Assembly: GCF_025751575.1 (NCBI RefSeq)
Contig: NZ_JAOWLA010000015.1
Location: 1-64,000, forward strand
From: Albidovulum sediminicola
GTDB lineage: Bacteria > Pseudomonadota > Alphaproteobacteria > Rhodobacterales > Rhodobacteraceae
Reading direction: 5' to 3'
DNA length: 64,000 nucleotides
Below, piece after piece: positions 10,473 through 33,799 of the stretch. The notes under the pieces were generated by a model. The model did not search any database, had not been told where the DNA came from, and saw only the letters and a list, made by a program, of their open reading frames with translations. A program made the position numbers and the translations under genes. Each line of letters begins with the position of its first letter. Within the stretch, counting starts at the first letter, position 1.

Positions 10473-11786
10473 GTGGAAGTATCTATTCTTGGTGCCGGGT
10501 ATGTCGGCGCAGTCAGCGCCGCGTGTCTGAGCGACCTGGGCAACCGGATCGTCGTCGCGGATGTGAACGCGGACAAGGTGGCCCGTATCGGCCGCGGCGA
10601 ATCCCCCATCATCGAAGCCGGACTCGATGAGCTGCTGAAGGCGGGCGTGGACAAGGGGCTGCTGACATCGACCACCGATGTGAAGCAGGCCGTCAAGTCG
10701 ACCAAGGCGTCGATCGTCTGCGTCGGCACGCCTTCGCGCGCGGATGGCAGCCTCGACCTGCAATATGTGAAGGATGTCTGCGAAACCATCGGCGCGGCGC
10801 TGAGGGAAGTCGACCACCGTCACACGGTCATCATGCGTTCGACCATGGTTCCGGGCTCCATGCGCGGGCTGGTGATCCCGACGCTGGAGGCCGCATCCGG
10901 CCTCAAGGCTTTCGAGGATTTCGGCCTGGCGATCTACCCTGAGTTCCTGCGCGAAGGCACCGCGATCAAGGATTTCTTCGACGCCGCGATCACGCTTTAT
11001 GGGGTCGAGGAAGAAGAGACCACCGAGGTGCTGCGTGCGATCAACAAGGGCTTGGCCTCCAGCGAGGTGCTGACCAGCCTCGACGCGGCGGAGGCGGTGA
11101 AATACGCCAACAACTGCTGGCACGCGATGAAGATCTCCTTCGCGAACGAAATGGGCAACATCGCCCGTGCCGCCGGCATCGACGGGATCGAGGTCATGCG
11201 CATCCTGTGCCTCGATACGCGCCTCAATGTCTCGACCGCCTACATGCGGCCCGGCTTCGCCTTCGGCGGCTCCTGCCTGCCCAAGGACCTGCGCGCCATC
11301 CGGGCGCTTGCCGCCTCCAAGGGGCTGCCGACGCCGGTCTTCGACGCGGCGCTCGCGGCCAACGAACTTCAGGTCGATCATGCCGCAGCTCTTGTCGAAG
11401 AGGCCGGCAACGCCAAGGTCGCCCTGCTGGGCTTGGCCTTCAAGGACGGCACGGATGACCTGCGTGAAAGCCCGCTGATCGCTCTCGCGCGCCAGCTGAT
11501 CGCCGCCGGAAAGCAGCTTTCGATCTACGACAGCACGATTCAGGAGGCGTTCGGCAAGGAGGAGTTTAAGTCCTACTTCGACGCCGCCTTCCCCGATTTG
11601 TCGACGCGTTTCGCGGCTTCTGCGCAAGCGGCTTACGACGGGGCGGACACGATTATCTTCGGGCGCAACGACAGCGCCGCCATGCCCTTTGCGGAGCCGG
11701 CGCTTGCCGAAAAGGCCGTTGTGGACCTTGTGCGCGTCCGCGCGGACCTGCGGACAGGTGGAAATTACAAAGGCATCTGTTGGTGA
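10473..11786 (+). CDS. algD: GDP-mannose 6-dehydrogenase
   Basis: The enzyme oxidises GDP-mannose to GDP-mannuronate with two NAD+, the committed step of alginate synthesis. From a GTG at 10473 the product is 437 residues, essentially the size of Pseudomonas AlgD. The NAD-binding loop is GAGYVG (7-12). The catalytic motif FAFGGSCLPKDLRA puts the nucleophile at Cys268, the same number as in P. aeruginosa AlgD. The in-frame Met at 10185 would add 96 non-homologous residues. GGAG lies upstream of the GTG, and homology starts immediately. UDP-glucose/UDP-ManNAc dehydrogenases are the alternatives, but the AlgA/Alg8/Alg44 context favours AlgD. Confidence 0.92.
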   Translation: MEVSILGAGYVGAVSAACLSDLGNRIVVADVNADKVARIGRGESPIIEAGLDELLKAGVDKGLLTSTTDVKQAVKSTKASIVCVGTPSRADGSLDLQYVKDVCETIGAALREVDHRHTVIMRSTMVPGSMRGLVIPTLEAASGLKAFEDFGLAIYPEFLREGTAIKDFFDAAITLYGVEEEETTEVLRAINKGLASSEVLTSLDAAEAVKYANNCWHAMKISFANEMGNIARAAGIDGIEVMRILCLDTRLNVSTAYMRPGFAFGGSCLPKDLRAIRALAASKGLPTPVFDAALAANELQVDHAAALVEEAGNAKVALLGLAFKDGTDDLRESPLIALARQLIAAGKQLSIYDSTIQEAFGKEEFKSYFDAAFPDLSTRFAASAQAAYDGADTIIFGRNDSAAMPFAEPALAEKAVVDLVRVRADLRTGGNYKGICW

Positions 11787-11841
11787 GAAAACGCCCCGGC
11801 GGCGGCCGCAAGGCCCCGGATTCCGGCAAGAGGGTTAACAA

Positions 11842-13314
11842 TTGATCGGTCACCTGTCGTATATTCTTGGCGTGATGGTGTTCGCCTCCTTGCTCCCCGA
11901 TGCGATCTGGGAGCCGGGCACTGTCGAGTATCTTTTCATCGTCGGGATGATCGGCATCTGGCGTTACAGCTGGGGCGCGCTGCACATCGTGCGGAGCATC
12001 ATCTACCGTGCCTGGGTCTTTCCGGAGTGGCGCCGCGCGATCAATCGGCTGGGCGATGACGTGATGCCCGATCATGTCATGCTGCTCGTCACCAGCTTCC
12101 GCCAGGACTCCGAGACCACCCGCCGGGTCTATGACTCCGTCTTCCGCGAGGCCGTCAGTTGCGGCCTCAGGACGACGGTGATCGCCTCCATCGTGGAAAT
12201 GGCCGACCAGCGCCTGATCAAGGAGCTTTGGAACGTTTACGAGGGCAACCCCCTGGTAAAGCTGAAGTTCGTGCGCATCCCCGGCACCGGGAAGCGCGAC
12301 GCGCTGGCGGTGGGCTTCCGGTCGATCGCGGCCGAAAACCCCGGGCCGAACGACGTGGCCGCCGTCATCGACGGCGACTCAATGCTGGAACCGGGCCTGA
12401 TCCGCAAGACCGCGGGCTTCTTCGCCTTCGACCCGAAGTGCGGTGCCCTGACCACCGACGAGTTCTGCGAGGTCGAGGGCCGCTGGATCTTCAAGGAGTG
12501 GTACAACATGCGCTTTGCGCAGCGCCACATCCTGATGTCCTCGGTCGGGTTGTCGCGCAAGGTGCTGACGCTGACGGGCCGCATGTCGATGTTCCGCGCC
12601 CACATCGTTGCCGACCGCGAGTTCATCGAGCGTGTCCAGCACGACTGGATCAACCACTGGCGCCTCGGGCGCTTCGACTTCCTGACGGGCGACGACAAGT
12701 CGTCCTGGTTCCATGTCCTGTCGAAGGGCTGGGATATGCTCTACATCCCCGATGTTCGGGTGGTGACCATCGAGACCCCGCCCGACGACCGCTTCCTGAG
12801 CAGCGCCTGGCAGCTCATGCGGCGCTGGTTCGGCAACATGCTGCGCACCAACTCGCGCGCGGTTGCCCTGGGTCCGGGCCGCATCGGCTGGTTCCCCTGG
12901 ATCTGCGTCGTGGACCAGCGCATCTCGATGTGGACCAGTCTGACGGGCCCCGCGATCACGCTTCTCGTGTCGGTCTTCGTGACGCCCTACATGGTGCTGA
13001 GCTACATGCTCTGGGTTTTGCTGACGCGCTACGCGCTCACGCTCGCGCTTCTGACCGCGCGGCCCAACGTGTCGGCGACGTATCCGTTCCTGCTCTACTT
13101 CAACCAGGTCTTCGGTTCGATGGTGAAGATCTATGTGGTCTATCACCTCGACAAGCAGAAATGGACGCGCCAGTCGACCACGATCAGCCGGGGCCTGACC
13201 AGTTGGAAACAGCGCAGCCTGACCTGGTCCTCCAACATCTCAATGACGTCCGGGATCCTGATCTTCATGACGTCGCTCGCATTCCTCTCAGGCGTCCTAG
13301 AGGCCTGGCAGTAA
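11842..13314 (+). CDS. alg8: Alg8-type GT2 polymannuronate synthase
   Basis: This 490-residue inner-membrane processive glycosyltransferase polymerises GDP-mannuronate. Hydrophobic segments are at about 5-20, 29-50 and several after 350. The GT2 core has DGDS (177-180), TGDD (282-285) as the catalytic base region, and QLMRRW (324-329), resembling the Q-x-x-R-W motif of synthases. The start is TTG with AGAGGG eight bases upstream. No better ATG exists before the conserved membrane segment. It sits between algD and alg44 as in Pseudomonas. Alg8 works together with the PilZ protein Alg44, which is encoded next. Confidence 0.92.
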   Translation: MIGHLSYILGVMVFASLLPDAIWEPGTVEYLFIVGMIGIWRYSWGALHIVRSIIYRAWVFPEWRRAINRLGDDVMPDHVMLLVTSFRQDSETTRRVYDSVFREAVSCGLRTTVIASIVEMADQRLIKELWNVYEGNPLVKLKFVRIPGTGKRDALAVGFRSIAAENPGPNDVAAVIDGDSMLEPGLIRKTAGFFAFDPKCGALTTDEFCEVEGRWIFKEWYNMRFAQRHILMSSVGLSRKVLTLTGRMSMFRAHIVADREFIERVQHDWINHWRLGRFDFLTGDDKSSWFHVLSKGWDMLYIPDVRVVTIETPPDDRFLSSAWQLMRRWFGNMLRTNSRAVALGPGRIGWFPWICVVDQRISMWTSLTGPAITLLVSVFVTPYMVLSYMLWVLLTRYALTLALLTARPNVSATYPFLLYFNQVFGSMVKIYVVYHLDKQKWTRQSTTISRGLTSWKQRSLTWSSNISMTSGILIFMTSLAFLSGVLEAWQ

Positions 13315-13348
13315 GACATTCGCCGTTCGGAAAACGGAAGGGTACAAA

Positions 13349-14452
13349 ATGGCAGATGATGCAATTGTCCATGAGGCCGAGGTTCAACGACAGTATGTTC
13401 GTGTCCGCGTACCCGCGCTGGTCGAAATCAAGGGCGCCGAGGTCGAATGCTACGACTGGTCGGTCAATGGCTTGGGGCTGAACGCCACGCAGGGCAACTT
13501 CAAGGTCGGGCAACGCATCTCGGGCGAGATGGGCTTCAACTTCGACGGCTTCATGATGAGCGTCGAGTTCGACGCCGAGGTGCGCCACGTCCGCGAGATG
13601 ACCTACGAGGGCCGGGACGTTCATCGCATCGGACTTGAATTCTCGGAACTGTCGAGCCGCTCGCAGGCGCTGCTGCGCTACGTTTCCAGCGCCTATATCA
13701 CCGGCGAGGCGGTCGCGGCCGGGGACATGCTGCACCTTGTCCAGCGCGACAACTCCGCCCGTCCGCGCAAATCCGCGGCGCGCCTGGCCGAGGACCTGAC
13801 CCGGACGCAGCGCTTCGTTCAGGCCATGCGCCAGCCGATCAGCTGGATCATCCTCGCGGTGGTGCTGACCTTCTCGTTCATGCTGACCTCCAACGCCTTC
13901 TATCGCAACGCCTATATCCGGACCCTCGCCACGGCCGAGGTCACGACCGACACGCCGACCGCGCGCGCGCCGGCTGCGGGCGTGATCACCTTCATCGCCG
14001 GAAACGAAGGCGACGTGATCCCGACCGGAAACCCGTTGCTCGGGGTGCGCCGTCCGAGCGGGGAAGAGATCTTCGTGGACAGCCCCTGCGACTGTACCAT
14101 CGTCTCGATCGCCCATACGGTCCGCGAATTCGTCGAGGTCGGCGATGTCGTCCTGCGGCTTCTGCACCCGGACTCGAAGACCTTCGTCCGCCTCTATGTG
14201 TCGAAGTCGAACGCGCCCTGGCTGTTCGAGAACAAGCCCGACTACCTCATCGCGCAGATCCTCGGCTATGAGGGCCAGTTCTCGCTCGTGATGGGCGCCT
14301 CGATCTTCGACGCCGCGCGCGAAATGCTGGTGCTGGAGCTTGCGCCTTCGGAGGAGATTCCGTCCGAGCTCGCCGGCCGTCCCGCGACCGTCATCATGGA
14401 TGCTGGCCGCAGCACCATCGTGGGGCGCATCCGCAGCTTCTTTGCGGGGTAA
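13349..14452 (+). CDS. alg44: Alg44-like PilZ co-polymerase and membrane-fusion protein
   Basis: The 367-residue protein has a cytoplasmic PilZ domain (about 10-120), one transmembrane helix (about 164-182) and a periplasmic HlyD-like part. The c-di-GMP motif is complete: RxxxR at Arg14/Arg18 (RQYVR) and DxSxxG at Asp36/Ser38/Gly41 (DWSVNG). In Pseudomonas, c-di-GMP binding to Alg44 activates Alg8 post-translationally, and the same control is expected here. GGAAGGG precedes the ATG. The next gene begins two bases after the stop. The periplasmic part probably contacts the scaffold proteins encoded downstream. Confidence 0.92.
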   Translation: MADDAIVHEAEVQRQYVRVRVPALVEIKGAEVECYDWSVNGLGLNATQGNFKVGQRISGEMGFNFDGFMMSVEFDAEVRHVREMTYEGRDVHRIGLEFSELSSRSQALLRYVSSAYITGEAVAAGDMLHLVQRDNSARPRKSAARLAEDLTRTQRFVQAMRQPISWIILAVVLTFSFMLTSNAFYRNAYIRTLATAEVTTDTPTARAPAAGVITFIAGNEGDVIPTGNPLLGVRRPSGEEIFVDSPCDCTIVSIAHTVREFVEVGDVVLRLLHPDSKTFVRLYVSKSNAPWLFENKPDYLIAQILGYEGQFSLVMGASIFDAAREMLVLELAPSEEIPSELAGRPATVIMDAGRSTIVGRIRSFFAG

Positions 14453-14454
14453 CG

Positions 14455-17400
14455 ATGGCTCCGCGTCGCTGGCATAACCTCCTGTCGGCCTCCTCGGTGC
14501 TTCTGTGCACCGCGGTTGCCCTGCCCCAGGCCGGGGCCGCCCAGACCGGGTCGGGGGAGTTCAGCATTCTGGACTACCTCGCCTCGGATACGATCGAGCG
14601 CACACCCGAGGGGTGGCAGCTTGAGGCCGAGGCCGCGAGCGATCCGCATTCGGCCTACCTCGCTTATTCGCGGGCTGTCTCGGCGCTGCTGTCGGGAAAG
14701 GACGCGGCCGCGATCCCGCCGAGCCGGATCAGAAACCTGCGTTACGCGATGCTGCAAAAGGCGCTGGAAGCGGCGCTGGGCGGGCTTGGCGACGGGCGCG
14801 AAGGCATGCTGAAGAAAGCCCGCGAAGCCGCGCGCGACATGGCCGACCCGGCGGATACCGGCTGGGGTTACTGGCAGATCGCCCAGACCGAGCTGCGGCT
14901 GGATCGGCCCGACAACGTCCGTACGCTTCTGCGCCGCGCCACGCAGGCCGCCGAGGCGCTTGAGACGTCGGAGGTCCAGAGCCTTTTGTTCAAGGCGGCC
15001 GGCGAGACGGCGCTGAAGATCGGCGACGTGGAATTCGCGGCCTTCCAGCTGACGAACATGATCGCGCCCGGTGGTCGCCATCAGCTGGCCCGTCTGGTCG
15101 TTCAGGCCCGCAGCGCCGATGAAGCGCTTGCGCCCGAGGTCCGCAAGCTGCTGAGCGACAGCGTCGGCGAGGCGGGAACGCCGGAAAACGGGGTTCTGCA
15201 ACTGCTCGTGCTGGGCGAGTTCGACTATGCGATCGAGCTTGCGCTGACCGATGACGACTATTCCGAACAGGGCGACATGCTGACCGTCGTCACCAAGGCG
15301 GCGATCGACGCCAAGCAGCTTAGCGCCGCACGCCTGGCGGCGCTGCTTAACCCCGATGCGGGTGAAGCGACACGCGCCTGGGTCAACCTGGCGCGGGCGC
15401 AGTCGAAACAGGGCTATGGCAAGCAGGCTGACGATGCGCTGGCCCGCGCGCTGGCCCGTGCCACCGGACCGGGCGGCGACGAAAGCGACATCGGCCAGGT
15501 GGCCAAGGCCCATATCGACTTCGGCAATCTCGACCGTGCCGAGGATCTCTTGAAGCCGCTGTCGGACGCTTCCGAAAGCGTGGTGGAAATCAAGGGGCGT
15601 CTGATCGCGGCCCGGATCGAGGCCGACCAGCCGGCGGACCCGGTCCTGACGCCGACGGTCCCCCTGCCCGACGCGGCGCAATCCGGCATTCTGGCCTCGA
15701 CCGCTCTCGCACGCGCCCGCGATGGCGACCATACCGCCACGCTGGAAGCGCTGGGCCAGATCACCGACGAGGGCGCCGCCAACGAGGCGCGTTACGACGT
15801 GGTCGAGGCGATGATCGAACGCGGCGACGTCTCCGGTGTCGAGGCGCAGATCGAGGCGATCACCGACCCGGTGCTCGCGGCTGAGGCCGTGGCGAAATAC
15901 GCCAAGTGGCTGGTCCGAAACGACGACGCCCCGCAGGGCGAGGCGCGTTTCGCCCTGCTGGCCGAAAGCCTTGCGGCCCTGCCGCAGGAACAGGCGGACG
16001 CCGCCCGCCGCAAGGTCGCTAAAACCGCGGCCGAGGCGGGGCTTTTCGACCTGGCCGAGGCGATCGCGACGGCCGTCGCCGATCCTGCGCTGCGCGCCGA
16101 GGCCATCGCCAACATGGGCGCGGTCGTCGCGCAGAAGGCGCCCGACCGGGCGCTCGGCTATCTGGAGGCGTTGAGCGAGGTCAAGCAGCGCGACAAGCTC
16201 TTGGGAAATATCGCGCTGGGATTTGCCCGTGACCATGACATCGCCCGCGCGGAAGAATTCGCGCGCCAGATCGTCGAGGACAAGACCCGCGTGACCTTCA
16301 TGCGCAAGATCGCCGAAGAACAGGCGCTGCGGCTCGACACGCTCGACCTTCTGAAAGCCTCCGCGCCGCAGCCCGAAAGCTTTGAATTCGAAGCGGAGAG
16401 CGTGACCCCCGGGCCGAGCTACGGGACCGCCAAGCTCTTCTCGATCCAGGCCGAGCCGCTCACGCCGCGTATGCCGCCCCCGCCCCAGAACATCTGGACC
16501 ACCGCGGAAGAGGTCATGCACGACGTGGAGCCGATCAACCCCGGCCGCGCCTCCGTGTCGCTCATGCGGGCGAGCTACTTCACCGAGAAGTTCATCGCGG
16601 ACATCCCGGGCCAGACGCTTCTGCGCCACAAGCAGGGCCGCAACAGCCTTCAGTTCATCATGGTCGAAAGCGGCGTCTTCGACATCCCCTCCCTCTACCG
16701 CCGGCTGCGCGCCCTGGGCTACGACGAGGAGGCAATCAAGCGCGACGGGCGGATCTATACCCTGCGGCTGCCGCTTCTGGTGATGCCCGAGGCGACGCTG
16801 GTGATCTCGGGCGCGGATGTGGCGAACTTCCGCATGTCGGACGATCGCGGCGCCTTCATCACGGTCGCCGGTCAGATCCGCATCGCCGATACGGTCTTCG
16901 AAACCTGGCGGGAAGAATACAACCAGCGCGCCTACCGCACCTACGAGGTGAAGAAGAAGTTCCGCCCGTTCCTGACGATCTGGACCGGCGGCAATGTCGA
17001 TGTCGTGAACAGCACCGTCTTCGGGCTGGGCTATCTGGGCGGCAAGTCCTACGGGCTTGCCATGTCGGCGGGCCCCGCGACCTTCACCAAGAACCGCCCG
17101 ATGTGGGAAGACAGCCCCTATGGGCGGATCGTCAGCAACTCCTTCCGCAACAACTTCTATGCCTATTACGCCTATGAGGCGGTGGATGTCGCGATCGTGG
17201 GCAATGAGCTGGTCGACAACATCGTCTACGGGCTTGACCCGCACGACCGGGCGCAGCGCCTGAGCATGTCGTTCAACACCGCCTACGGGACCCACAAGAA
17301 GCACGGGCTGATCGTCTCGCGCGAGGTCGACAACAGCAACATGGTCGGCAACGTCTCGTTCGAAAACCACGGCTCCGGCTACATGCTGGATCGCGACAGC

Positions 17401-18168
17401 ATCCAGAACCTGCTTTACGCCAACACCGCCTTCGACAACGAACAGGACGGCATCTCGTTCTTCGAAAGCTCCTGCAACTTCATTGTCGGCAACTACCTGT
17501 TCGACAACAAGCGCGACGGGATCAAGTTGCGCAACAGCTGGAACCTGAGCGTCTTCGGCAACCAGATCGAAGGCCATGGCGCCGCTGGCATCGATGTCTA
17601 TTCAGGCTGGCTCGACCCCGAGGGCGCGCACAAGACCCGCGACTTCGAGCTTGACCCCTACTTCAGCTTCTCCGCGGTCGAGCTCTTCGACAACACGCTC
17701 AGCAACAACCGCGCCGGGCTGAAATTCCAGGGCGTCAACAGCGCGGTGATCGGCAGCAACCACATGGGCGACCAGTCCCCGCGCCTGTTTGCGGGGGACC
17801 TGATGTCGCTGGGCGGGGGGATCGTCTCCGCGACCTTGCAGGGTAAGACGGCGGGCATCGCCCACCAATGCGCCCAGCCCGTGCCGCGGGTGCATTGCAG
17901 CTTCCTTGAGGAAGGCTACCTGAGCGGCGAGGGCCAGAATATCCTGGAGGCGCTGAACGATACCGGGCGCTGCGTTCCCGATGAAGTGCGTCCGCGCGGC
18001 ATCCCGACCGCCGAAATGGAGCCCCAGATCGAGGCGCTGCTGGATGACAACAGCGAAGCGCCCGATGGCGAGGTCACGACCGAGCAGGGCCTGCATGACG
18101 AGGCGCCCGCGGCCGAACCCCAAGCCCCGGCGGAGCCCGCGCAGGCAGAGGAGGCCGTCGGCCAATGA
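14455..18168 (+). CDS. algG: helical-repeat domain fused to AlgG-like mannuronan C5-epimerase
   Basis: The 1237-residue periplasmic protein has a signal peptide ending AGAA-Q (about residue 29). Residues about 30-620 are Ala-rich helical pairs resembling TPRs. About 640-1180 form a right-handed parallel beta-helix with strong AlgG resemblance. The AlgG catalytic motif DPHD is at 928-931, followed by KKHGLIVSREV and repeated GN/DN turns. Pseudomonas AlgG is about 540 residues and lacks the helical half, so this is an unusual fusion. The acidic C-tail is Pro/Ala/Glu-rich. It should convert mannuronate to guluronate residues and scaffold the secretion complex. It overlaps the next gene by four bases (ATGA). 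Confidence 0.85.
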   Translation: MAPRRWHNLLSASSVLLCTAVALPQAGAAQTGSGEFSILDYLASDTIERTPEGWQLEAEAASDPHSAYLAYSRAVSALLSGKDAAAIPPSRIRNLRYAMLQKALEAALGGLGDGREGMLKKAREAARDMADPADTGWGYWQIAQTELRLDRPDNVRTLLRRATQAAEALETSEVQSLLFKAAGETALKIGDVEFAAFQLTNMIAPGGRHQLARLVVQARSADEALAPEVRKLLSDSVGEAGTPENGVLQLLVLGEFDYAIELALTDDDYSEQGDMLTVVTKAAIDAKQLSAARLAALLNPDAGEATRAWVNLARAQSKQGYGKQADDALARALARATGPGGDESDIGQVAKAHIDFGNLDRAEDLLKPLSDASESVVEIKGRLIAARIEADQPADPVLTPTVPLPDAAQSGILASTALARARDGDHTATLEALGQITDEGAANEARYDVVEAMIERGDVSGVEAQIEAITDPVLAAEAVAKYAKWLVRNDDAPQGEARFALLAESLAALPQEQADAARRKVAKTAAEAGLFDLAEAIATAVADPALRAEAIANMGAVVAQKAPDRALGYLEALSEVKQRDKLLGNIALGFARDHDIARAEEFARQIVEDKTRVTFMRKIAEEQALRLDTLDLLKASAPQPESFEFEAESVTPGPSYGTAKLFSIQAEPLTPRMPPPPQNIWTTAEEVMHDVEPINPGRASVSLMRASYFTEKFIADIPGQTLLRHKQGRNSLQFIMVESGVFDIPSLYRRLRALGYDEEAIKRDGRIYTLRLPLLVMPEATLVISGADVANFRMSDDRGAFITVAGQIRIADTVFETWREEYNQRAYRTYEVKKKFRPFLTIWTGGNVDVVNSTVFGLGYLGGKSYGLAMSAGPATFTKNRPMWEDSPYGRIVSNSFRNNFYAYYAYEAVDVAIVGNELVDNIVYGLDPHDRAQRLSMSFNTAYGTHKKHGLIVSREVDNSNMVGNVSFENHGSGYMLDRDSIQNLLYANTAFDNEQDGISFFESSCNFIVGNYLFDNKRDGIKLRNSWNLSVFGNQIEGHGAAGIDVYSGWLDPEGAHKTRDFELDPYFSFSAVELFDNTLSNNRAGLKFQGVNSAVIGSNHMGDQSPRLFAGDLMSLGGGIVSATLQGKTAGIAHQCAQPVPRVHCSFLEEGYLSGEGQNILEALNDTGRCVPDEVRPRGIPTAEMEPQIEALLDDNSEAPDGEVTTEQGLHDEAPAAEPQAPAEPAQAEEAVGQ

Positions 18169-19253
18169 AGACGCTGCGACCCCTTGTCCTTGGGCTTTGC
18201 CTGGCACTGCCGGGCGCGGCCATGGCGCAACAGGTCCTGAACATGGACCTGCGCGCGGCGATCGCCGACACCAACGATTTCGCGCGTTACTGTGCGGGCG
18301 GCGACATTCCGGCCGATGCGCAGCTTGAACCCGTCTATGCCCTCAACGCGACAGAGGAATACGGCTCTGACCAGGCGACGCAGGATTTCGCCTGGGCGGT
18401 CATGGTGCTTGGCGGTCATGCGCTGGGCGGCGACGGCGCCGCCCGCGACCGGCTTGAGGCGCTGCTGCTGACCTGGGCCAACGCCGAGGCGCTGGTTGGC
18501 ACCGAGCGGGTCCATGACGCGGTCTATGCGCTCAAGCGGACGCTGCTGCCCACCATCGTCAGCTACAGCATCATCCGGGCCGACCTGCCGGCGGCATCGC
18601 AGACGATCCTCGACCGCTGGCTTGGCAGCCTGGTGGAGATCGCGGGAACCGAATTCGGCGGCGATGTCGATCAGAACAACCACCGCTATCTGGCGGATTC
18701 CGTGCTGGTGGCCTGGGGGGCGCTGACTGAGGACGCGGGGCTTCTCGACAAGGCTGAGGCGCGGCTGCGCCTCGCGCTGACGGGGCAGCTGCGCGAGGAC
18801 GGCAGCTGGCCGCTGGAAACGCGCCGGGGGGCGCGGGCGCTCTGGTACACGCGCCAGTCGCTTTCGAGCCTCGGCTTCATCATCGCGACGCTGGAAAACA
18901 GCGGGCGCGACGTGTTGGCCGACGATGGCATCCGCCGCGGCTACGAAACCGCGATGAGCTTCTTCCTCGACGGGATCGACGCCCCGATCATCGTCACCAA
19001 ATACGCGGCGGAGAACTATATCCCCGGCCCGTCCGAGGACTACGCCAATCAGGACATGAGCTTCCTGCAGACCCGGCCGCACGGGCGCCACTACATGGCA
19101 TTCCTGGCGCTGGCGGACCACCTGGTCATCGACCCCTTCCTCAAGACCCGGATCGAGCGGCTGATTGGCACCCTCCCGGCGGCGGCGTTCCCGATGATCG
19201 ACGAATTCAGCGGCGGCAACGCGAGCTGCTTCTGGGGGGGCGGCAATGCGTAG
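18165..19253 (+). CDS. alginate-lyase-like (PL5/AlgL superfamily) periplasmic protein, first paralogue
   Basis: The 362-residue protein has a signal peptide ending AMA-Q. The PL5 pattern is present: NNHRY at 171-175 with His173, then RRGARALWY with Arg221 and Tyr228. The His-to-Tyr (55) and Arg-to-Tyr (7) spacings are like those of Sphingomonas A1-III, where His, Arg and Tyr are catalytic. AlgL degrades misrouted polymer in the periplasm. The Trp of NNHxYW is Leu here, and the protein is more divergent than the second paralogue at 26707. It overlaps the upstream epimerase and the downstream Sel1 gene, showing tight translational coupling. Confidence 0.75.
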   Translation: MKTLRPLVLGLCLALPGAAMAQQVLNMDLRAAIADTNDFARYCAGGDIPADAQLEPVYALNATEEYGSDQATQDFAWAVMVLGGHALGGDGAARDRLEALLLTWANAEALVGTERVHDAVYALKRTLLPTIVSYSIIRADLPAASQTILDRWLGSLVEIAGTEFGGDVDQNNHRYLADSVLVAWGALTEDAGLLDKAEARLRLALTGQLREDGSWPLETRRGARALWYTRQSLSSLGFIIATLENSGRDVLADDGIRRGYETAMSFFLDGIDAPIIVTKYAAENYIPGPSEDYANQDMSFLQTRPHGRHYMAFLALADHLVIDPFLKTRIERLIGTLPAAAFPMIDEFSGGNASCFWGGGNA

Positions 19254-23751: not shown

Positions 23752-23760
23752 GAGGCAGAC

Positions 23761-26700: not shown

Positions 26701-26706
26701 GATGAC

Positions 26707-27813
26707 ATGGGCGCAACAAGGTGGGGGCAACGGGTCATGATGGCGATCACGGCCAGCGGCCTGACCTTGGCGCCCGGTCCCTTGGCCGCGACCGGAGGCT
26801 GCGTCGCGGCGCTCCGGTCGCCGTTTCCGGACAGGGACATGCCGGTGTCTGCCGCGCCCGAGGCCTATGACTGCGCCGAGGCTCCGGCTCCGGTGGTCTC
26901 GCTCGACGCAATAAGCAAGTACGACCAAGAAAGCCCGAACCGCGACAAGCTGGACGCGGAGGCCGCCGCCGCCTTCGAGGCGGAAATGGAAGGCCTGCGG
27001 GAGTTCCAGAAGCTTGTCGTCCGGGCGGCCAATGCCAGCCGGCTGAAGCCGGAACAGGCACAATCCGCGGCCGACTGCGCCAGCGCCTATATCGTTGAAT
27101 GGGTCCGCGCCGATGCGCTTTCGGACATGCAAAGCCACACCGCGCAGCAGCACCGTTCGATCTATGTCGGCACGATCGCGCTCGCCTGGCTTCAGGTGCG
27201 CGACCGCAACGACAAGCCCCTGGAACAGACGGAGGTCGAGGCCTGGCTTGCAACGCGGGCCGAAGAGATCGTGACCTATTTCGGCGACCGCAACGACAAA
27301 CCCTCGGGGCGCAACAATCACCGCTACTGGGCCGGCGCCGCAGTGGCGGCGAGCGGGATCGCGACCGGGCGCTGCGATCTCTATGCCTGGGGCACCAGCG
27401 CGCTAGATATCGCGCTCGCGCAGGTGACGGCCGAGGGATACCTCCCGCTGGAGCTCGACCGGGGCACGCGCGCCCGTGACTATCACCTTTATGCGCTCGC
27501 CCCGCTGATGCTGCTCGCGCTGATGGAGAAGAACCGGGGCCGGGACGTCATGGCCGACCACAACGGGGCGCTGCGGCGTCTTGTGGCGCAGACCCTTGAT
27601 GCGGTCGCCGACCCCGGCGCGATTGCCGAAAAGACCGGCGAGGAACAGATCGCGTTCACCGGCGAGGATGGCGCGCCGAAGGGCCACCAGATGGCGTGGT
27701 TCGTTCTGCTGCAACAGATCGACCCGGATTTCGCAGCCGGGTTCGACCTGGAATTGCCCCAGCCTCTGGCGTTCACGAGCCTCGGGGGCGATCTTGCCAA
27801 GCTTTTCAATTGA
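26707..27813 (+). CDS. algL: alginate lyase (PL5, AlgL-like), second paralogue
   Basis: This 368-residue exported protein is the closer AlgL match of the two lyase genes. It has GRNNHRYWAG with His205 and the full NNHxYW motif, then LDRGTRARDYH with Arg252 and Tyr259. The His-Tyr spacing is 54 and Arg-Tyr 7, as in characterised PL5 lyases. The enzyme cleaves polymannuronate by beta-elimination in the periplasm and clears polymer that fails to exit. The export signal near residues 10-28 is somewhat polar. The start is six bases after the previous stop, with only a weak ribosome site, so translation may depend on coupling. Confidence 0.85.
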   Translation: MGATRWGQRVMMAITASGLTLAPGPLAATGGCVAALRSPFPDRDMPVSAAPEAYDCAEAPAPVVSLDAISKYDQESPNRDKLDAEAAAAFEAEMEGLREFQKLVVRAANASRLKPEQAQSAADCASAYIVEWVRADALSDMQSHTAQQHRSIYVGTIALAWLQVRDRNDKPLEQTEVEAWLATRAEEIVTYFGDRNDKPSGRNNHRYWAGAAVAASGIATGRCDLYAWGTSALDIALAQVTAEGYLPLELDRGTRARDYHLYALAPLMLLALMEKNRGRDVMADHNGALRRLVAQTLDAVADPGAIAEKTGEEQIAFTGEDGAPKGHQMAWFVLLQQIDPDFAAGFDLELPQPLAFTSLGGDLAKLFN

Positions 27814-27826: not shown

Positions 27827-29965
27827 ATGACGAAACTCAAAGCGCTTCGGGCCGGAACGTCCATGCTTGTGGTCGGGGCGTTCCTGGGCCTTTCGGGTTG
27901 CGAAGTCACCCTGGTCGAAAACCGCACCTCCGCCGACATCCGGGAGGCCCGCGTGGCCAGCCAGACGCGCGGCGATTCCCGCTCGGCCGAGGCGCTGCTC
28001 CGGCAGGCGATCTACGACGCGCGCGATCCCAAGCTGCGCATGGTCGCGGAATACGAACTTGGCCGCATCCTCGTCAGCAAGCCCACCAACAGTTCGCGGG
28101 TACAAGAAGGGCTCGGCCTTCTGGGAAGCGCCTCGGCCACCTACGCCCCGGCGCAGGCCAAGCTTGGGCAGATGTATGCCGAGGGCGACGGGGTGCGGAA
28201 GGACGAGCTTCGCGCGACGCAATACCTGCGCGCCGCCGCCCAGGGGGGGCATGCCGGGGCGCAGTTGGACCTTGCCACGCTGATCCGCAAGAACCCCGCG
28301 CTCGGCAGCCCGATCGAGGCGTCGCGCCTGGCGTCGGCCGCCATTTCCAAACTTCAGGCTGACAGCCGCAAGGGGGATGCCAATGCCTCGCGTCAGTTGG
28401 GGCAGCTTTATCGGGACGGGTTGGTCGTTCCGGCGAACCGCGCGGAATCCGAACGCTACTACTCGATGGCAGTGCGCCAGGGGCAGACCAAGGCCGTGAC
28501 CGAGCTTGCGGAGATGTGGATGAACGGATCGCCCGCAGACCGGCAAAAGGCGCTGCGGCTTCTTGAGATGGGGGCCGACCGCGATGTGGGCCGCGCCGTG
28601 ATCCTGCTGGGCGACCTCTACCGCAACGGCACGATCACCCAGGCCGACCGGGATCGCGCGCTGGCTTATTATCTCAGGGGCGCGACCTCTTACGATGACT
28701 CCACGGTCAGCCGCGTCGCCTCGACCCTGCGCATGGGTGGCGTTTCGGCCGAGCGGCGCAGTCAGGCCACGCAATACCTCCAGTCGGCGGCCGCCAGCGG
28801 TTCGGCCAAGGCCGCGATGGAACTGGGCAAGATCAGCGAAAACGGCGGCAACCTGGGGGCGGCGGCAAAATACTACCGCACCGCGGCCAATGCCGGCCTG
28901 CCGGAGGCGAAGATGCGCCTTGGGCGGCTCCTGTTCGAAGGCAAGGGTGTCGGGCGCGACTATGCGGGCGCGGTCAAGCTTCTCGATGCGGCCTCGCGCG
29001 CGGGCTACAACGAGGCGGACGCCTATCTGGGGCGGGCCTATGCCGAGGGCAACGGGGTCGCGCAGGACTGGACGAAGGCGCGGACCTACCTGGAAAAGGG
29101 CATCAAGGGCGGCTCGACCTCGGCCGCGGTCTTCCTGGCACAGGCCTATTGGGATGGGCTTGGTGGCCCGGCCAACCCGACCGAGGCGGTGCGGCTCTTC
29201 AAGTTCGCGGCCGACCGTGGCAGCGTCACCGCGATGAACGCGCTCGCCGAGGCGTACCGGACCGGGCGCGGCGTCGCGCCCAACCAGGACCTTGCGCTGC
29301 AATGGACCGAGCGCGCGGCCAAGGGCGGGTCATCCTCGGCGCTGGTCGATACGGGCTGGGCCTATGCGACCGGCAACGGCGTGCCGCGCGACATGGTGGA
29401 GGCCAATCGCTACTTCCAGTCCGCGGTCGATCGCGACCCGTCCAAGGCCGGGCAAATCGCGCGCGCACTCCGCGACGGCAGCAAGGGCGTCGTCGATACC
29501 GCGCTTGCGGACTACTACGCCGATATCGCCCGCCTTTCCGGAGACCCGCAGGAACTGCGCAATCAGGCGCGCGGGCTGGAAAGCTCCGACCCCGCACAGG
29601 CGGAGGCGGCCTATCGTGAGGCCGCGCGCAATGGCGATACCGTCGCCATGATCTGGCTGGCAGAGCGCGCCTTCGCCTCCGGGGACGGGGCAGGGGGACG
29701 CCGGCTGCTGGACCAGGCGGCGTCGGGCGGGAACGGCGAGGCGGCGCAAAAGCTTGGCGCGATCTATGCCTTCGGCGATGGGGTCGGGATCGATCTTGGC
29801 CGGGCGCTGTCCTACTACAAGCGCGGCGCCGAGCTCGGCAATGGCGAGTCCATGTACTGGGTCAGCATGTTCTACCGTCAGGGCCTGGGCGTGCCTGTCG
29901 ATACCCGGCTCGCGGACGAATGGCTCGCCAAGGCCCGCGCGGCGGGCTACTCGGTCGGGCTCTAG
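27827..29965 (+). CDS. algK: AlgK-like Sel1-repeat outer-membrane lipoprotein
   Basis: The 712-residue protein begins with a lipoprotein signal: a hydrophobic stretch then LSGC, making Cys25 the acylated residue. Sel1/TPR repeats follow from about 60 to the end (for example LGQMYAEGDGV, LGRAYAEGNGV, LGAIYAFGDGVGIDLGRALSYY). AlgK is an outer-membrane Sel1 lipoprotein that localises the AlgE pore, so this is the best AlgK equivalent, though longer than the usual about 475 residues. The Met at 27827 follows GGAGATCGAGG and starts the signal peptide. An earlier in-frame start at 27581 lies inside algL and is not used. Its TAG overlaps the stop of the convergent gene. Confidence 0.85.
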   Translation: MTKLKALRAGTSMLVVGAFLGLSGCEVTLVENRTSADIREARVASQTRGDSRSAEALLRQAIYDARDPKLRMVAEYELGRILVSKPTNSSRVQEGLGLLGSASATYAPAQAKLGQMYAEGDGVRKDELRATQYLRAAAQGGHAGAQLDLATLIRKNPALGSPIEASRLASAAISKLQADSRKGDANASRQLGQLYRDGLVVPANRAESERYYSMAVRQGQTKAVTELAEMWMNGSPADRQKALRLLEMGADRDVGRAVILLGDLYRNGTITQADRDRALAYYLRGATSYDDSTVSRVASTLRMGGVSAERRSQATQYLQSAAASGSAKAAMELGKISENGGNLGAAAKYYRTAANAGLPEAKMRLGRLLFEGKGVGRDYAGAVKLLDAASRAGYNEADAYLGRAYAEGNGVAQDWTKARTYLEKGIKGGSTSAAVFLAQAYWDGLGGPANPTEAVRLFKFAADRGSVTAMNALAEAYRTGRGVAPNQDLALQWTERAAKGGSSSALVDTGWAYATGNGVPRDMVEANRYFQSAVDRDPSKAGQIARALRDGSKGVVDTALADYYADIARLSGDPQELRNQARGLESSDPAQAEAAYREAARNGDTVAMIWLAERAFASGDGAGGRRLLDQAASGGNGEAAQKLGAIYAFGDGVGIDLGRALSYYKRGAELGNGESMYWVSMFYRQGLGVPVDTRLADEWLAKARAAGYSVGL

Positions 29966-31434
29966 GGGCCCGCGCATCTGGCGGCGAGATTTCGGATCTG
30001 CGCCGCCAGCCGCCGGCTGTTCAGCGTTTGCGGGAGGACGAGGTCCAGCCGGGGCAGGAGCCGCTGGCCCGATGCCGCGATCTCGGGTCCGACAAGGGCC
30101 AGCGTGTTGTCCGAAAACCCGATGGCCGTCAGCCGGTCCGAGAGCCGCGCCAGAACCGTGGGCGCCGACTGCCCTTGGCGGGTCAACTCCAGCATGCAGG
30201 CCCCCTGCCGCGACTGGCTTAGTGTGAAGCCCTCATCGGGGCTGTCCAGAACGCGGATATCCGCCACCCCGGCGACGGGCAGCCCGGCATGTTCGAAGCC
30301 CGGATCGAACTCGAACTGATTGGCGTCGAGCCCCTGAAGGAAGATCGAATCCGCTGTCGGGACGATCAGATCCGCGACCCGGGAAGGATCCTTGCTGGCC
30401 GGCACGATCGCGGCGGAAAGATCGCTCAGGGCCAAGATCGGCGCCCTTGGTCCCGCCTTCATCAGCGCCAGCAGGCGGCCCTGGGGCGTCACGGGATCCG
30501 CGGCCGTGACGATCTCGGCATCGACGAGGAACCGCCCGTCGCGCAGGTCGATGATCCCCCGGGGGCGGGTGGGCATGGCGAAATCGACCGGCTGCTCGAA
30601 CAGGACCGAGCCGCCGTCATCCATATGGATCAGCCTGTAGGCAAAGGGGCCGCGGTCGTCGTCGGGCAGCAGCAGCAGAAAGCCCGCCGCGCGTAGTGGC
30701 ACCGCGAAGATCCGGTCCATCGCCTGACGCGTCGAAAACGGAAGCGTGACATTGCGGACGGCGTTGAACTGCCCATCGAAGAGCGAGAGATATAGCCCCG
30801 TCTGCGCCGTTGCCTGCGTGGCCCCGGACTGCGCGGCCCCCAGTACCAGGATCCGGTCGGGCGATACGCGCGATACCGCAAGGAAGCGGTCGTTGCTCAG
30901 CGGCGTGTCCTGCACGACCACCTGCGGCGCCTGCCCTGGGACGAGATAGGTGAGCGCCGCTGCGCTGTCGCCACGGTCGGGCCGGCCGATCTCACCCACG
31001 ACGATGACGCCCGCGCCGTGCTGAACCATGCCCGCGCCGTGCATGACCGCGCCGGTCGACGTATAGGCGATGTCACGCAACTCTCCGGTGGGGCTCAGCC
31101 GCAGAAGGGCGGTTTCGCGAACGTCCCGGGTGCTGGCCTCGACCACGAGGTCGATGTCCCCGCCCCGCCGGGCGTAAAAGAACATGACTTCCGGGGGATT
31201 GGCGAAGAGGTTCAGCCGTAACTGGCCGCTATCAATCTGGCGCCCGCTGGGGTCGATCCGGCTGAGGTTCACCGACTGTTCCCCGGGCGAGTAGTCCATG
31301 ACGACGACGTTGCCCAGGGCCTCGATCTGGGCCAGCACGCGGCCGGGGGCCGATCGGGCCTCAGTTGCCCCGAAAAAAGCAGATAGTGCGCAAAATAATG
31401 CCAACATCGTTAGAGATTTCAGCACGTTGAGCAC
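29962..31434 (-). CDS. exported protein of unknown function, possible beta-propeller
   Basis: I do not recognise the family. The 490-residue protein has a clear signal peptide (hydrophobic 6-22, cleavage near ARS-A). It carries repeated short blocks of the type LSRIDPSGRQ, LRLSPTGELRD and IHMDDGGSVLF, which resemble beta-propeller blades. Only two cysteines remain in the mature part, near its C-terminus. It converges on algK; the two stop codons share CTAG, so there is no room for a terminator. It is divergent from the outer-membrane barrel gene. The position suggests a periplasmic accessory of the polysaccharide machine, possibly polymer- or peptidoglycan-binding, but nothing proves it. Confidence 0.7.
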   Translation of the reverse strand: MLNVLKSLTMLALFCALSAFFGATEARSAPGRVLAQIEALGNVVVMDYSPGEQSVNLSRIDPSGRQIDSGQLRLNLFANPPEVMFFYARRGGDIDLVVEASTRDVRETALLRLSPTGELRDIAYTSTGAVMHGAGMVQHGAGVIVVGEIGRPDRGDSAAALTYLVPGQAPQVVVQDTPLSNDRFLAVSRVSPDRILVLGAAQSGATQATAQTGLYLSLFDGQFNAVRNVTLPFSTRQAMDRIFAVPLRAAGFLLLLPDDDRGPFAYRLIHMDDGGSVLFEQPVDFAMPTRPRGIIDLRDGRFLVDAEIVTAADPVTPQGRLLALMKAGPRAPILALSDLSAAIVPASKDPSRVADLIVPTADSIFLQGLDANQFEFDPGFEHAGLPVAGVADIRVLDSPDEGFTLSQSRQGACMLELTRQGQSAPTVLARLSDRLTAIGFSDNTLALVGPEIAASGQRLLPRLDLVLPQTLNSRRLAAQIRNLAARCAGP

Positions 31435-31622
31435 TCCTTCCCGGGCAGGGACACTGACGGATCACAAAACGATGCAAAAGGCCCACACAGCTGCCCAAAC
31501 CGCGCGATCATTTACCCTTAAGCTAAAAAAATAATGGCAATAAATTCAAGAAATGTTATTACTCACCATGCAATAAAATGCTACACCGTAATCGTTGGTG
31601 GCTGAGGTAAAGAGCAGGGCAG
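31435..31622. promoter_or_regulatory. AT-rich divergent promoter region
   Basis: The 188 bases between the exported unknown gene and the beta-barrel gene are strikingly AT-rich, especially about 31505-31590, and must hold promoters for both directions. No clear -35/-10 pair could be assigned. No gene is supported here. Confidence 0.5.
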
Positions 31623-32975
31623 ATGGGTATGAACGGAAAGAAACACTTGGGTTATTCCCAGGCGCTCCTGGCTTGTGTTGCCGCGCCCGCGCTTGGTGTG
31701 GTCGCCGCCTCGCCGTCCTTCGCGCAATCCTTCCTGTCGTCCGATTACGCGATCCCGCAACTGCCCGATCAGCCCTATGAGGCCTCGGTCAGCCAGGGGC
31801 CGGTCTCCTCGGCCGTGACCCTCGCCTTCGAGGGCAAGACCGGCGCAGGGTTCCAAAGCAACATCTTCAAGGATGCCAACGGCGCCGAGGTTTCGGATTT
31901 CGTCTTCAGCGCCTCGCCGCGCGCCGTCCTGCGCGTCAACACCGGCGGCGTGAAGGGCAAGATCGAGGCTGGCGCTGATCTGACCAAATATTCCTCGAAC
32001 CCGATCAACGACCAGGTGGACCTGTTCGTGCGCGGCAAGGCCGAGTTCGGGCTGAGCGACCGCAGCTCGATCTTCGTCGATGCGGGCCTCAAGCAGGATG
32101 AGCACGCGATCGAGGCCAACCTGTCGCAGCCCGGCCTGACCCCGACCGAGACGCGGACCTCGCTGGAAGGGCATGTCGAGGCGGGTTTCAAATACGCGGG
32201 CGACCAATGGACATCGCGCGCGGCCGTCGGGCTGAGCTTCGTGAACTATGACGGCATCCAGGCGACCGGCGATCCGCTGGCGGCCGCCGCCGTCTACGGC
32301 GGGCTTCCGGGCATCGATAACGAGCTGCGCAACAAGACCACGGTCTATGCGAGCGCGGAAGCGGGAAAGAAGCTCTCGCTCGAGGGAGAGATCTTCGGCG
32401 GCGTCAAACTTGAAGTCGCGAGCTTCCAGAAGGATGTCAGCTACAACCCCGCGCGCAACAGCACCACGATCGAGCCCTTCGTCGGCTACCGCCACACGGC
32501 CGCAGACGGCTCGCTAGAGGCTGATGCGCGCATCGGCGTCGCGATCCGGTCCTTCGACAATGACGATTACGATACGATCATCGTGCCGACGGTGAACGCC
32601 TCGGCCACCTGGTCGCCCGATGGCCGCGACTACGCGATCTTTGCCTCGACCGAAACCACGCTCGATGACACGCTTGCGGTTGGCGTCGGCGCCAAGGTCA
32701 CGCAGGAATTCAAGGTGGGCGCCCGCGCCAACCTGAATGACCGCTGGGAGATCAACGGCGACATCGGCGGCGAATATGCGCTGGAGACCGTCTCGGAAGC
32801 CCTGGGCGGCGGATCGGATTCCGAAACGACCCTGGGTATTGGCGTCGGCATGAAGTACTTCGTGATGGACAACATCTACGTCGGCGCCGATGCACGCTAC
32901 GAAACGACCTTTGGCAACAGCGCGGGGCAGATCTCCGACGCGGTTTTCAGGGTCAACGTGGGCGCTGAGTACTGA
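31623..32975 (+). CDS. outer-membrane beta-barrel protein, candidate polymer export pore
   Basis: The 450-residue protein has a signal peptide (cleavage after SFA-Q, about residue 35) and a long series of alternating amphipathic strands (TLAFEGKTGAGFQ, ADARIGVAIRSF, KVGARANLNDRWEING). It ends in the aromatic residue Tyr (VNVGAEY), the terminal signal used by the Bam machinery. It resembles the BBP2-type barrels found in several exopolysaccharide loci and does not look like AlgE. In this locus it is the only candidate for the outer-membrane channel. Its TGA overlaps the ATG of the diguanylate cyclase by one base (TGATG), so the two are translationally coupled. The first or third codon could be the start. 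Confidence 0.8.
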   Translation: MGMNGKKHLGYSQALLACVAAPALGVVAASPSFAQSFLSSDYAIPQLPDQPYEASVSQGPVSSAVTLAFEGKTGAGFQSNIFKDANGAEVSDFVFSASPRAVLRVNTGGVKGKIEAGADLTKYSSNPINDQVDLFVRGKAEFGLSDRSSIFVDAGLKQDEHAIEANLSQPGLTPTETRTSLEGHVEAGFKYAGDQWTSRAAVGLSFVNYDGIQATGDPLAAAAVYGGLPGIDNELRNKTTVYASAEAGKKLSLEGEIFGGVKLEVASFQKDVSYNPARNSTTIEPFVGYRHTAADGSLEADARIGVAIRSFDNDDYDTIIVPTVNASATWSPDGRDYAIFASTETTLDDTLAVGVGAKVTQEFKVGARANLNDRWEINGDIGGEYALETVSEALGGGSDSETTLGIGVGMKYFVMDNIYVGADARYETTFGNSAGQISDAVFRVNVGAEY

Positions 32976-33760
32976 TGGTTTTCGCCGATACGACCGAGGT
33001 CGTGTCGCGGTGCCTGAGCCAAGCGGGGGGGTTCGCCCTCCTTCTGTTCGATGCTGAAGGGGCGCTGCGTGGAGCCCAGGGCGACGAGGCGCTCTTTAGC
33101 CTCGGGCGCGAGGGCCTGTTGGCGCTGCTCGCGACCTTTGGTCAGGCTGAAGACTGGCAGGGCGCCGTGACGACTTATGTCGGGGCTCAGGCGCTGCGGC
33201 TTTCCGTATCGCGGGCGGACGGCGCGGTGGTGGCTTTCCTGCAGGACCTTAGCGATCAGATCACGCGCGAAACCCTTCTCCGGATCGAGGCGACGACCGA
33301 TCCCCTGACCGGACTGCTGAACCGGCGGGGCTTCGAGCGGCTGACCGCCACCGCGTTCCGTTCGCATTCCGGGACGGAGACCGGCCACGTCATCGGCGTC
33401 GTAGATGTCGACAACCTGAAGCGCCTGAACGACGGCGGCGGCTATCAGCAGGGGGACCGGACCCTGAAAGGTGTGGCGCGCGAGCTTGATCGCAGTTTCC
33501 GCGCCGGCGACATCACGGGCCGAGTTGGCGGCGACGAGTTCGCCTTTTGCCTCGTCAACGTTCCCGAGCCCTTGGTCGAAAAGATCCTGAAGCGCCTGTC
33601 GGCCCGCATCGCGGAGGAAACCTCTGCCACGGTGACCATCGGCGCGGTTCACTGTCCGGCATATTCCGACCCGGCGCAGGCCCAGATCCGTGCGGGTGAG
33701 CTTGCCCTTGCAGCCAAGCGTGCGGGCAAGAATCGGGTCTCAATCGAGGTCGTTCGCTGA
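32975..33760 (+). CDS. GGDEF diguanylate cyclase
   Basis: The 261-residue protein has no membrane segment. Residues 1-100 look like a small PAS-type sensor domain; 105-261 form the GGDEF domain. The active motif GGDEF is intact (185-189), with DVDNLKRLND and GGYQQGD for metal and nucleotide binding. An inhibitory I-site, RxxD (Arg176/Asp179), lies five residues before GGDEF, predicting product feedback. It should make c-di-GMP, which the PilZ domain of Alg44 in the same locus would sense. It is coupled to the beta-barrel gene by a one-base overlap. The signal sensed is unknown. Confidence 0.92.
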   Translation: MVFADTTEVVSRCLSQAGGFALLLFDAEGALRGAQGDEALFSLGREGLLALLATFGQAEDWQGAVTTYVGAQALRLSVSRADGAVVAFLQDLSDQITRETLLRIEATTDPLTGLLNRRGFERLTATAFRSHSGTETGHVIGVVDVDNLKRLNDGGGYQQGDRTLKGVARELDRSFRAGDITGRVGGDEFAFCLVNVPEPLVEKILKRLSARIAEETSATVTIGAVHCPAYSDPAQAQIRAGELALAAKRAGKNRVSIEVVR

Positions 33761-33794: not shown

Positions 33795-33799
33795 GAACT

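Follow-up and report, generated by a model that had tools for sequence, protein, structure and literature searches.

The locus and its genes

The window analysed here is a stretch of 64,000 nucleotides from Albidovulum sediminicola, a member of the Rhodobacteraceae (contig NZ_JAOWLA010000015.1, positions 1 to 64,000, from a 4.13-Mb genome in 70 contigs that is 99.98% complete). An earlier note had described in it an alginate-like secretion locus with an expanded set of repeat proteins, and our analysis supports an alginate-type synthase-dependent machine with expanded solenoids. Equivalents of AlgD, Alg8, Alg44, AlgG, AlgX and AlgL are recognizable from Pfam or PDB matches (for Alg8, a GT2 synthase in its place), and they are accompanied by three Sel1-repeat proteins and by a helical repeat fused to the epimerase AlgG. 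The pathway genes span positions 6812 to 33760. The locus had been taken to begin at 10473 and to form one co-directional run; however, AlgA and AlgC lie just upstream (6812-9853), and one minus-strand frame (29962-31434) breaks the run of plus-strand genes. AlgL is present as claimed but twice, at 18165-19253 and 26707-27813. The features are listed below with the expect values (E) of their best matches.

6812..8332, plus: AlgA/ManC, mannose-1-phosphate guanylyltransferase / mannose-6-phosphate isomerase (Pfam NTP_transferase 2.8e-47, MannoseP_isomer 3.7e-47)
8354..9853, plus: AlgC, phosphomannomutase (Pfam PGM_PMM I-IV)
10473..11786, plus: AlgD, GDP-mannose 6-dehydrogenase (PDB 1mfz, 8e-116)
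11842..13314, plus: Alg8-like GT2 mannuronan synthase (Pfam Glyco_tranf_2_3 1.1e-32)
13349..14452, plus: Alg44, PilZ receptor of cyclic di-GMP (c-di-GMP) with an HlyD-type part (Pfam PilZ 1.7e-7, HlyD_3 1.4e-8)
14455..18168, plus: long AlgG (1237 residues), N-terminal helical solenoid and mannuronan C5-epimerase beta-helix (4nk6, 4e-63)
18165..19253, plus: AlgL1, divergent PL5-like alginate lyase (Pfam Alginate_lyase 1.7e-18; PDB 1hv6 3.7e-8)
19246..22380, plus: SelA, Sel1-repeat solenoid, 1044 residues (Pfam Sel1 2e-65)
22390..23751, plus: AlgX, SGNH acetyltransferase-like (Pfam ALGX 4.6e-49; 4knc 1.1e-35)
23761..26700, plus: SelB, Sel1-repeat solenoid, 979 residues (Pfam Sel1 5e-77)
26707..27813, plus: AlgL2, PL5 lyase of Pseudomonas AlgL type (PDB 4ozv 1.3e-33; Pfam Alginate_lyase 8.2e-33)
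27827..29965, plus: SelC, Sel1-repeat protein with an LSGC lipobox, 712 residues, proposed AlgK equivalent (Pfam Sel1 4e-56, obtained on a 794-codon frame containing the 712 residues)
29962..31434, minus: exported-looking 490-residue protein, no Pfam family (coding-like codon-position GC)
31623..32975, plus: BBP2-type outer-membrane beta-barrel, proposed export pore in AlgE's stead (Pfam BBP2_2 1.4e-18)
32975..33760, plus: diguanylate cyclase with a GGDEF motif (Pfam GGDEF 3.9e-26)

The start codons chosen were GTG at 10473 for AlgD and ATG at 27827 for SelC, and the signal-peptide-like starts of SelA, SelB, AlgG, AlgX and both lyases were read by eye. The alginate genes are open frames with a coding-like codon-position composition. 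The minus-strand frame, which sits between the SelC and barrel genes, is likewise coding-like (GC by codon position 0.71/0.48/0.83), and its product has no match within the eight same-genus stretches compared around the right flank. The first base of the GGDEF gene is the last base of the barrel gene.

Component identities and the polymer

AlgD scores 391 bits against the GDP-mannose dehydrogenase 1mfz and 227 against the next-best structure, a UDP-glucose enzyme (164 bits apart), and its alignment to 1mfz extends to the C-terminal GICW. The PilZ domain of Alg44 matches that of Alg44 in the PDB (4rt0, 1.4e-9) and has the RQYVR and DWSVNG motifs. The epimerase domain of AlgG, at about residues 659-1088, keeps the DPHDR motif, while the whole protein scores 268 bits on the NCBIfam AlgG model, below its curated cut-off of 700 bits. 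In AlgX the triad residues D, H and S are present and, in the alignment to 4knc, fall on the residues D174, H176 and S269. Both lyases carry the NNH motif, AlgL2 being close to AlgL and AlgL1 distant, and counterparts of the AlgL residues R249 and Y256 (mentioned in the part of PMC8829089 available to us) were located by eye in both, with the Arg and Tyr of AlgL1 spaced seven residues. No Alg8-specific model and no solved structure matched Alg8, and we assign it by its GT2 family, its position and context, and its homologues, which at 39-56% identity adjoin other alginate genes.

A GDP-mannose-type AlgD, an AlgG and two PL5-type lyases together suggest that the polymer is most likely ordinary alginate. 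The earlier note had raised the possibility of a different uronate polymer served by the extra scaffolds, which we consider quite improbable. In its favour are an Alg8 that shares just 39-46% identity with its counterparts in the single-Sel1 Rhodobacteraceae loci described below, the lack of a match to any solved Alg8 relative, and the divergence of AlgL1. It sits poorly with the type of AlgD and of the lyases, and also with the epimerase motif: DPHDR is found in 10 of 12 aligned AlgG rows, window included, the exceptions being DSHDR in L128 and NPHDG in L140 (the alignment does not include L107 and L114; here and below, handles with G denote genomes and those with L loci). Moreover, a secreted AlgE-type mannuronan C5-epimerase is encoded directly downstream of the related locus L140 (18045-20657; AlgE6, 5lw3, E 4e-92).

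Two observations belong here. The AlgG of L140 (5860-9969), with NPHDG for DPHDR, may be inactive, the downstream AlgE-type epimerase doing the work. A similar beta-helix/RTX protein lies directly downstream of the multi-Sel1 alginate locus L138 (17996-21089).

Solenoids in the Sel1 proteins and on the epimerase

SelA, SelB and SelC reach 56, 75 and 74 bits on the AlgK model NCBIfam NF038194, far under its 700-bit cut-off, which led us to reject the candidate explanation that each of them is a true AlgK. No catalytic domain was found in any of them with Pfam. SelC is the top scorer among the genome's 13 local AlgK-model matches (41.8 bits, still under the cut-off), and it combines Sel1 repeats with the lipobox of a predicted outer-membrane lipoprotein. 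The AlgK equivalent claimed earlier thus stands as a proposal for SelC. The single AlgK of about 475 residues named in the earlier note fits Pseudomonas, but in 19 of 20 other Rhodobacteraceae stretches the one Sel1 protein already has 607-1175 residues.

An AlphaFold2 model of SelA, built on a 12-row alignment, has a mean predicted local distance difference test score (pLDDT) of 81 and 53 helices after the first, in about 26 hairpins; its best solved matches in Foldseek are Sel1 proteins (6ok3, E 3.4e-18). AlgK is stated in PMC9384988, in the part available to us, to have 9.5 repeats and to be 70 angstrom long, and by repeat-number scaling SelA would be about 190 angstrom long, which is arithmetic and no measurement.

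The helical solenoid of AlgG spans about residues 64-627. In the AlphaFold2 model (pLDDT 80, predicted template modelling score [pTM] 0.78), 31 helices at model residues 35-598 precede the beta-helix, and the top Foldseek match is 4nk6 (E 2.8e-25); the N-terminal part matches tetratricopeptide repeat (TPR) proteins at fold-class level only. Self-comparison revealed internal repeats in the solenoid family, in agreement with the helical repeat claimed before. We rejected its identification as a Sel1 domain, as there is no Sel1 match in it, and no comparison with the SelA, SelB or SelC profiles was convincing (the best, with the SelA alignment, had a probability of 12.5). The AlgG-solenoid profile does match the N-terminal part of the AlgL1 homologue of the class genome G650 (E 3e-16; best of 200 shuffles 2.6). 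Hence, one solenoid family appears on the epimerase in window-type loci and on the lyase in G650, where this divergent lyase is encoded at L101 4066-6345.

Relatives within Rhodobacterales and the class

At E 1e-30, Alg8 homologues were detected in 39 of the 244 genomes searched in the order, that of the window among them. Outside that genome there were 42 matches, and the surroundings of 40 were fetched; the two left aside, both weak, were the one in G150 and the second one in G097. Of the 20 top-ranking Rhodobacteraceae stretches, L048 is without a Sel1 open frame, and the other 19 each contain a single one, mostly of about 920 residues; AlgX-like genes are found in 19 and AlgG in 16, with 447-690 residues, and none has AlgL1. 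These single-Sel1 loci, such as that of Loktanella salsilacus (NZ_CP072993.1, whose annotation names an MBOAT family protein, AlgF, a tetratricopeptide repeat protein and an alginate lyase family protein), have the same enzyme kinds and belong to the same order of bacteria as the window, but differ from it in their one Sel1 protein, shorter AlgG and lack of AlgL1.

In the remaining 20 stretches no AlgG or Sel1 match exceeded 25 bits, and they seem to represent a different system; this second Alg8-like Rhodobacteraceae class (21 rows of the tree described below) was put aside as such. The loci concerned (L051-L070; for example, L058 4351-11941) have an Alg8-like synthase with AlgD and, in most, AlgA, and perhaps make another mannuronan-type polymer. 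Two of the 20, L054 and L056, have AlgX-like genes upstream, and in L058 a 901-residue RTX-repeat protein recognized with Pfam follows AlgD; L065 is similar by eye.

The long AlgG is found in 1 of 22 genomes of the genus; AlgG matches occur in 4, the other 3 at 27% identity and in the epimerase part only. With the two best candidates per genome scored, 394 family members gave no further AlgG match above 33% identity, and the epimerase domain at E 1e-20 identified, besides the window, only G650 (41%) and G691 (33%) among 385 genomes of the class. The AlgG of G650 is of the long form and is accompanied by four Sel1 open frames; that of G691 has 522 residues and is accompanied by one. Two Sel1 genes of G650 have between them (L101 18332-19765) a gene whose product is hydrophobic, probably spans the membrane and has no Pfam family. 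A SelA profile search of the same 385 genomes (E 1e-40, with scores for the two top candidates of each genome) returned an end-to-end match only for the window and a partial one for G650; 41 other genomes match just the generic C-terminal repeats of SelA.

Multi-Sel1 loci in Hyphomicrobiales and others

A full-length AlgG probe of the named genome collection returned no relative. An AlgL1 alignment of the window and G650 proteins, used as a seed with two peptide patterns only and so yielding a sample rather than a census, identified 36 alphaproteobacterial loci in that collection (L106-L141): 14 named Rhizobium, 7 named Microvirga and the others from further Hyphomicrobiales, some of them unnamed, and from uncultured alphaproteobacteria, with one under the label Rickettsiales. 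The fetched stretches are at most about 21 kb long, and many are cut. They contain AlgG in 36 of 36, Alg44 in 34, Alg8 in 32, AlgD in 27 and AlgA in 16 cases. At least three Sel1 open frames are present in 29 of the 36: three in 27, four in L125 and five, apparently broken pieces, in L121. L120, L136 and L139 have two; L122, L129 and L130 have one and L141 none. Contig ends cut the last four of these loci; L136 and L139 extend to a contig end as well. The AlgG-solenoid profile matches 35 of the 36 loci, missing L122; 10 of these 35 rows had helped to build the profile, and the other 25 had not but are close kin.

To obtain loci independently of AlgL1, we searched plasmid records with Alg8 only, which gave 14 records (9 Rhizobium, 5 Rhodobacterales), of which 6 and 1, respectively, were fetched. 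L195 and L196 have the same architecture as the AlgL1-seeded loci, AlgL1 included. In L193, L194 and L197 (replicons of R. etli 8C-3, R. sullae WSM1592 and CC1099), AlgG frames of 1248-1249 residues occur with Sel1 frames of 1005-1044 and 955-959 residues that flank AlgX and with AlgL2-like genes; AlgL1 was not found in these three. Since similar loci are found via Alg8 alone, the shared architecture is not only a matter of ascertainment. The solenoid profile missed the AlgG N-terminus of the three loci at E 0.01, and a profile comparison covering about 105 columns gave a probability of 83, so this part seems at best distantly related to the window solenoid.

L191 (R. gallicum M101) resembles L193, L194 and L197, with its long AlgG and one Sel1 gene each split in two frames (23132-26882 and 32017-34885) that are single in the relatives, by assembly error or decay. 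In R. etli, R. sullae, CC1099 and R. gallicum, AlgA and the long AlgG are separated by a 331-residue gene (L193 23125-24120; L191 22124-23119), for which Pfam gave no family in L193.

The rhizobial and other Hyphomicrobiales loci (L106-L141 and L193-L197) have in common with the window a long AlgG with two large Sel1 proteins after it, and all but L193, L194 and L197 share AlgL1 with it. They differ from it in that the third Sel1 protein is usually about 430 residues long, lacks a lipobox and has no barrel found nearby. The earlier note had asked whether the Sel1 genes co-occur with alg8/alg44. SelA- and SelB-like genes do accompany alg8/alg44, in the AlgL1-chosen sample and in the three Alg8-found loci, but the third Sel1 gene varies and may not be orthologous.

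Are the extra Sel1 proteins nothing but AlgK duplicates or generic periplasmic Sel1 proteins with no dedicated scaffolding role? Sel1 repeats are indeed common, as illustrated by a 1017-codon open frame with AlgK-model matches on another contig of the same genome and by the 41 of 385 genomes matching the C-terminal repeats of SelA; the three proteins have no catalytic domain, and the protein at SelA's position is short in the nearest relatives (see below). Yet the order and number of the Sel1 genes recur across several families, the 385 class genomes showed no end-to-end SelA match other than the window's, and the presence of a different solenoid on AlgG and on the G650 lyase suggests that scaffolding of enzymes is a repeated theme. 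We therefore regard this explanation as unlikely, though it deserves more weight than that of a different polymer.

Missing partners and the probable outer-membrane pair

No match to AlgI/MBOAT (PF03062) was found in the window's own genome at E 0.001, and none to the AlgE family (Alginate_exp, PF13372) at E 0.01, the linked barrel being of the BBP2_2 family. In 14 control genomes, the MBOAT search was positive in 3 and the AlgE-family search in 1. Some related loci do have acetylation-type genes: L125 has an MBOAT gene, and L112, L125 and L139 add MBOAT and/or AlgF genes. In the window and in G650, a lipobox Sel1 gene is followed by a BBP2 barrel gene, and a similar pair with a BBP2-type barrel occurs in L125/L180 and L181, divergent from alg8 (the lipoboxes of G650 and L181 were read by eye). 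From this arrangement, SelC and the BBP2 barrel are probably the outer-membrane pair that replaces AlgK and AlgE. We also considered a linked BBP2 barrel in the Rhizobium loci, which was not supported. Neighbours of the distant BBP2 barrels look similar in several of the AlgL1-locus genomes.

Evolutionary history

The Alg8 tree comprises 75 rows and includes 31 of the 36 AlgL1-seeded loci, five having given no Alg8 row long enough. The window groups with L136, L125 and G951 (support 97/93), apart from the clade of single-Sel1 Rhodobacteraceae (100/99). G650 and G691 are long branches that meet.

In the sister genome G247, window positions 6883-9856 (80.7%) and 34259-36335 (86.8%) align with 36 bases between them. 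The two flanks nearly abut, hence a 24.4-kb block is absent there, while copies of AlgA (75% identical, same site) and AlgC (89%) are present. The 7 other same-genus stretches have the right-flank genes without AlgA or AlgC in the fetched sequence. Judged by these alignments, the block beside algA-algC was gained, or lost in the sister species, as one unit; a gain in the window's line and an ancestral gain followed by loss in G247 both fit.

This history raises the question of whether the locus is a silent or decaying acquisition, gained horizontally, already without its acetylation genes and unused. The single long AlgG among the 22 genomes of the genus, the block missing at the same site in G247, and the absence of an AlgI-family match despite the MBOAT gene of the related L125 would agree with it. 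The open frames of the alginate genes and their coding-like composition would not, and all catalytic and regulatory motifs looked for are present; we give such a scenario only a slight chance.

Proposed working

We propose that the locus encodes a multi-solenoid subtype of synthase-dependent alginate machine under the control of c-di-GMP, a reading to which we assign a probability of about 0.6. The sequences support AlgA, AlgC and AlgD as the enzymes that would provide GDP-mannuronate. Alg8 and Alg44 would polymerize it once the PilZ domain of Alg44 binds c-di-GMP, of which the linked GGDEF protein is perhaps the source. AlgG would epimerize the polymer, and the two PL5-type lyases would clear it. 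The putative lipoprotein SelC and the BBP2 barrel would stand in for AlgK and AlgE at the outer membrane. We infer that SelA, SelB and the solenoid fused to AlgG hold the epimerase, the lyase and, where present, AlgX along the path of the polymer, and that this scaffolding would physically couple modification and clearance to export. The longer periplasmic conduit that the earlier note derived from the extra solenoids is plausible. AlgX, in a genome in which an AlgI-type MBOAT was not found, most likely binds and guides the polymer rather than acetylating it, unless there is another acyl donor; in Pseudomonas, the acetylation genes are dispensable for secretion according to the portion of PMC9734138 that we used.

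Several findings weigh against this proposal. The scaffold contacts are suggested indirectly, by gene order and fusion, and in P. aeruginosa, as reported in the same portion of PMC9734138, AlgK binds neither AlgG nor AlgL. The global shape of SelA is uncertain (pTM 0.50), and the Sel1 protein at SelA's position has just 300-347 residues in L120, L125 and L136, the window's nearest Alg8 relatives, which indicates that great length is not essential. Of the 36 AlgL1-seeded stretches, many of which are cut, only 6 have AlgX-like genes and 10 an AlgL2, and AlgX was not seen in the fetched 36 kb of G650; being scarce in related stretches and unseen in G650, AlgX cannot be the sole partner of SelB. 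The Rhizobium and Microvirga loci yielded neither a barrel nor a Sel1 gene with a lipobox. Of 15 AlgL1-locus genomes searched, 12 contain a BBP2 barrel, which in 10 of them is away from the locus and has no Sel1 gene in the fetched surroundings. Finally, the multi-Sel1 Alg8 rows lie on one side of a weak branch (38/85; 40% of bootstrap trees).

A bolder version of the multi-solenoid proposal is conceivable but doubtful in our view. It holds that Hyphomicrobiales and a small number of further alphaproteobacteria share a distinct alginate secretion subtype, that each periplasmic polymer-handling enzyme in it has a solenoid, and that the solenoids together form a continuous trans-periplasmic conveyor coupling epimerization, trimming and export. 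Such a conveyor would draw on the solenoid of AlgG, on one that is fused to AlgL1 or lies next to it, and on others beside AlgX, where it occurs, and beside the barrel, where this is linked.

Relation to known systems and meaning

The window shares with P. aeruginosa equivalents of AlgA, AlgD, Alg8, Alg44, AlgG, AlgX and AlgL and, judging by the lipobox of SelC, probably also a Sel1 lipoprotein paired with an outer-membrane barrel, as far as the excerpts of PMC9734138 and PMC10641220 at hand describe that system. Where that system has one AlgK of 9.5 repeats, the window has three Sel1 proteins; it further differs by the solenoid on AlgG, a second divergent lyase, a BBP2 barrel in place of AlgE and a linked GGDEF protein, and in that AlgI was not found. 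PgaA, BcsC and PelB similarly couple a periplasmic helical-repeat scaffold to an export pore (PMC9384988, in part). In these proteins a TPR domain is fused to the porin, whereas in the window one solenoid is fused to the epimerase and the others are separate proteins.

The claim that no system of this architecture has been described agrees with the open-access papers searched, none of which appeared to report it or to place several Sel1 proteins in an alginate locus of alphaproteobacteria (the search did not extend to subscription papers, preprints or supplements); the layout itself is shared with most of the 36 loci. Atypical alginate operons of environmental bacteria, with losses such as algKE, are reported in PMC7112194 as far as its accessible part goes, and some multi-Sel1 loci may be in the set of that study. 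The layout appears to be common to a number of rhizobia and, as far as the searched open-access papers go, not yet described.

How AlgG associates with the alginate complex of Pseudomonas is called unclear in the section of PMC9734138 available to us. A solenoid on AlgG, and in one genome on a lyase, offers a direct test, in tractable soil bacteria, of whether these enzymes are built into a trans-envelope complex. The related loci suggest that rhizobia, among them Rhizobium etli 8C-3, R. sullae WSM1592 and R. grahamii BG7, make an exopolysaccharide that has been overlooked, and bacteria with such loci are possible sources of alginate without acetyl groups.

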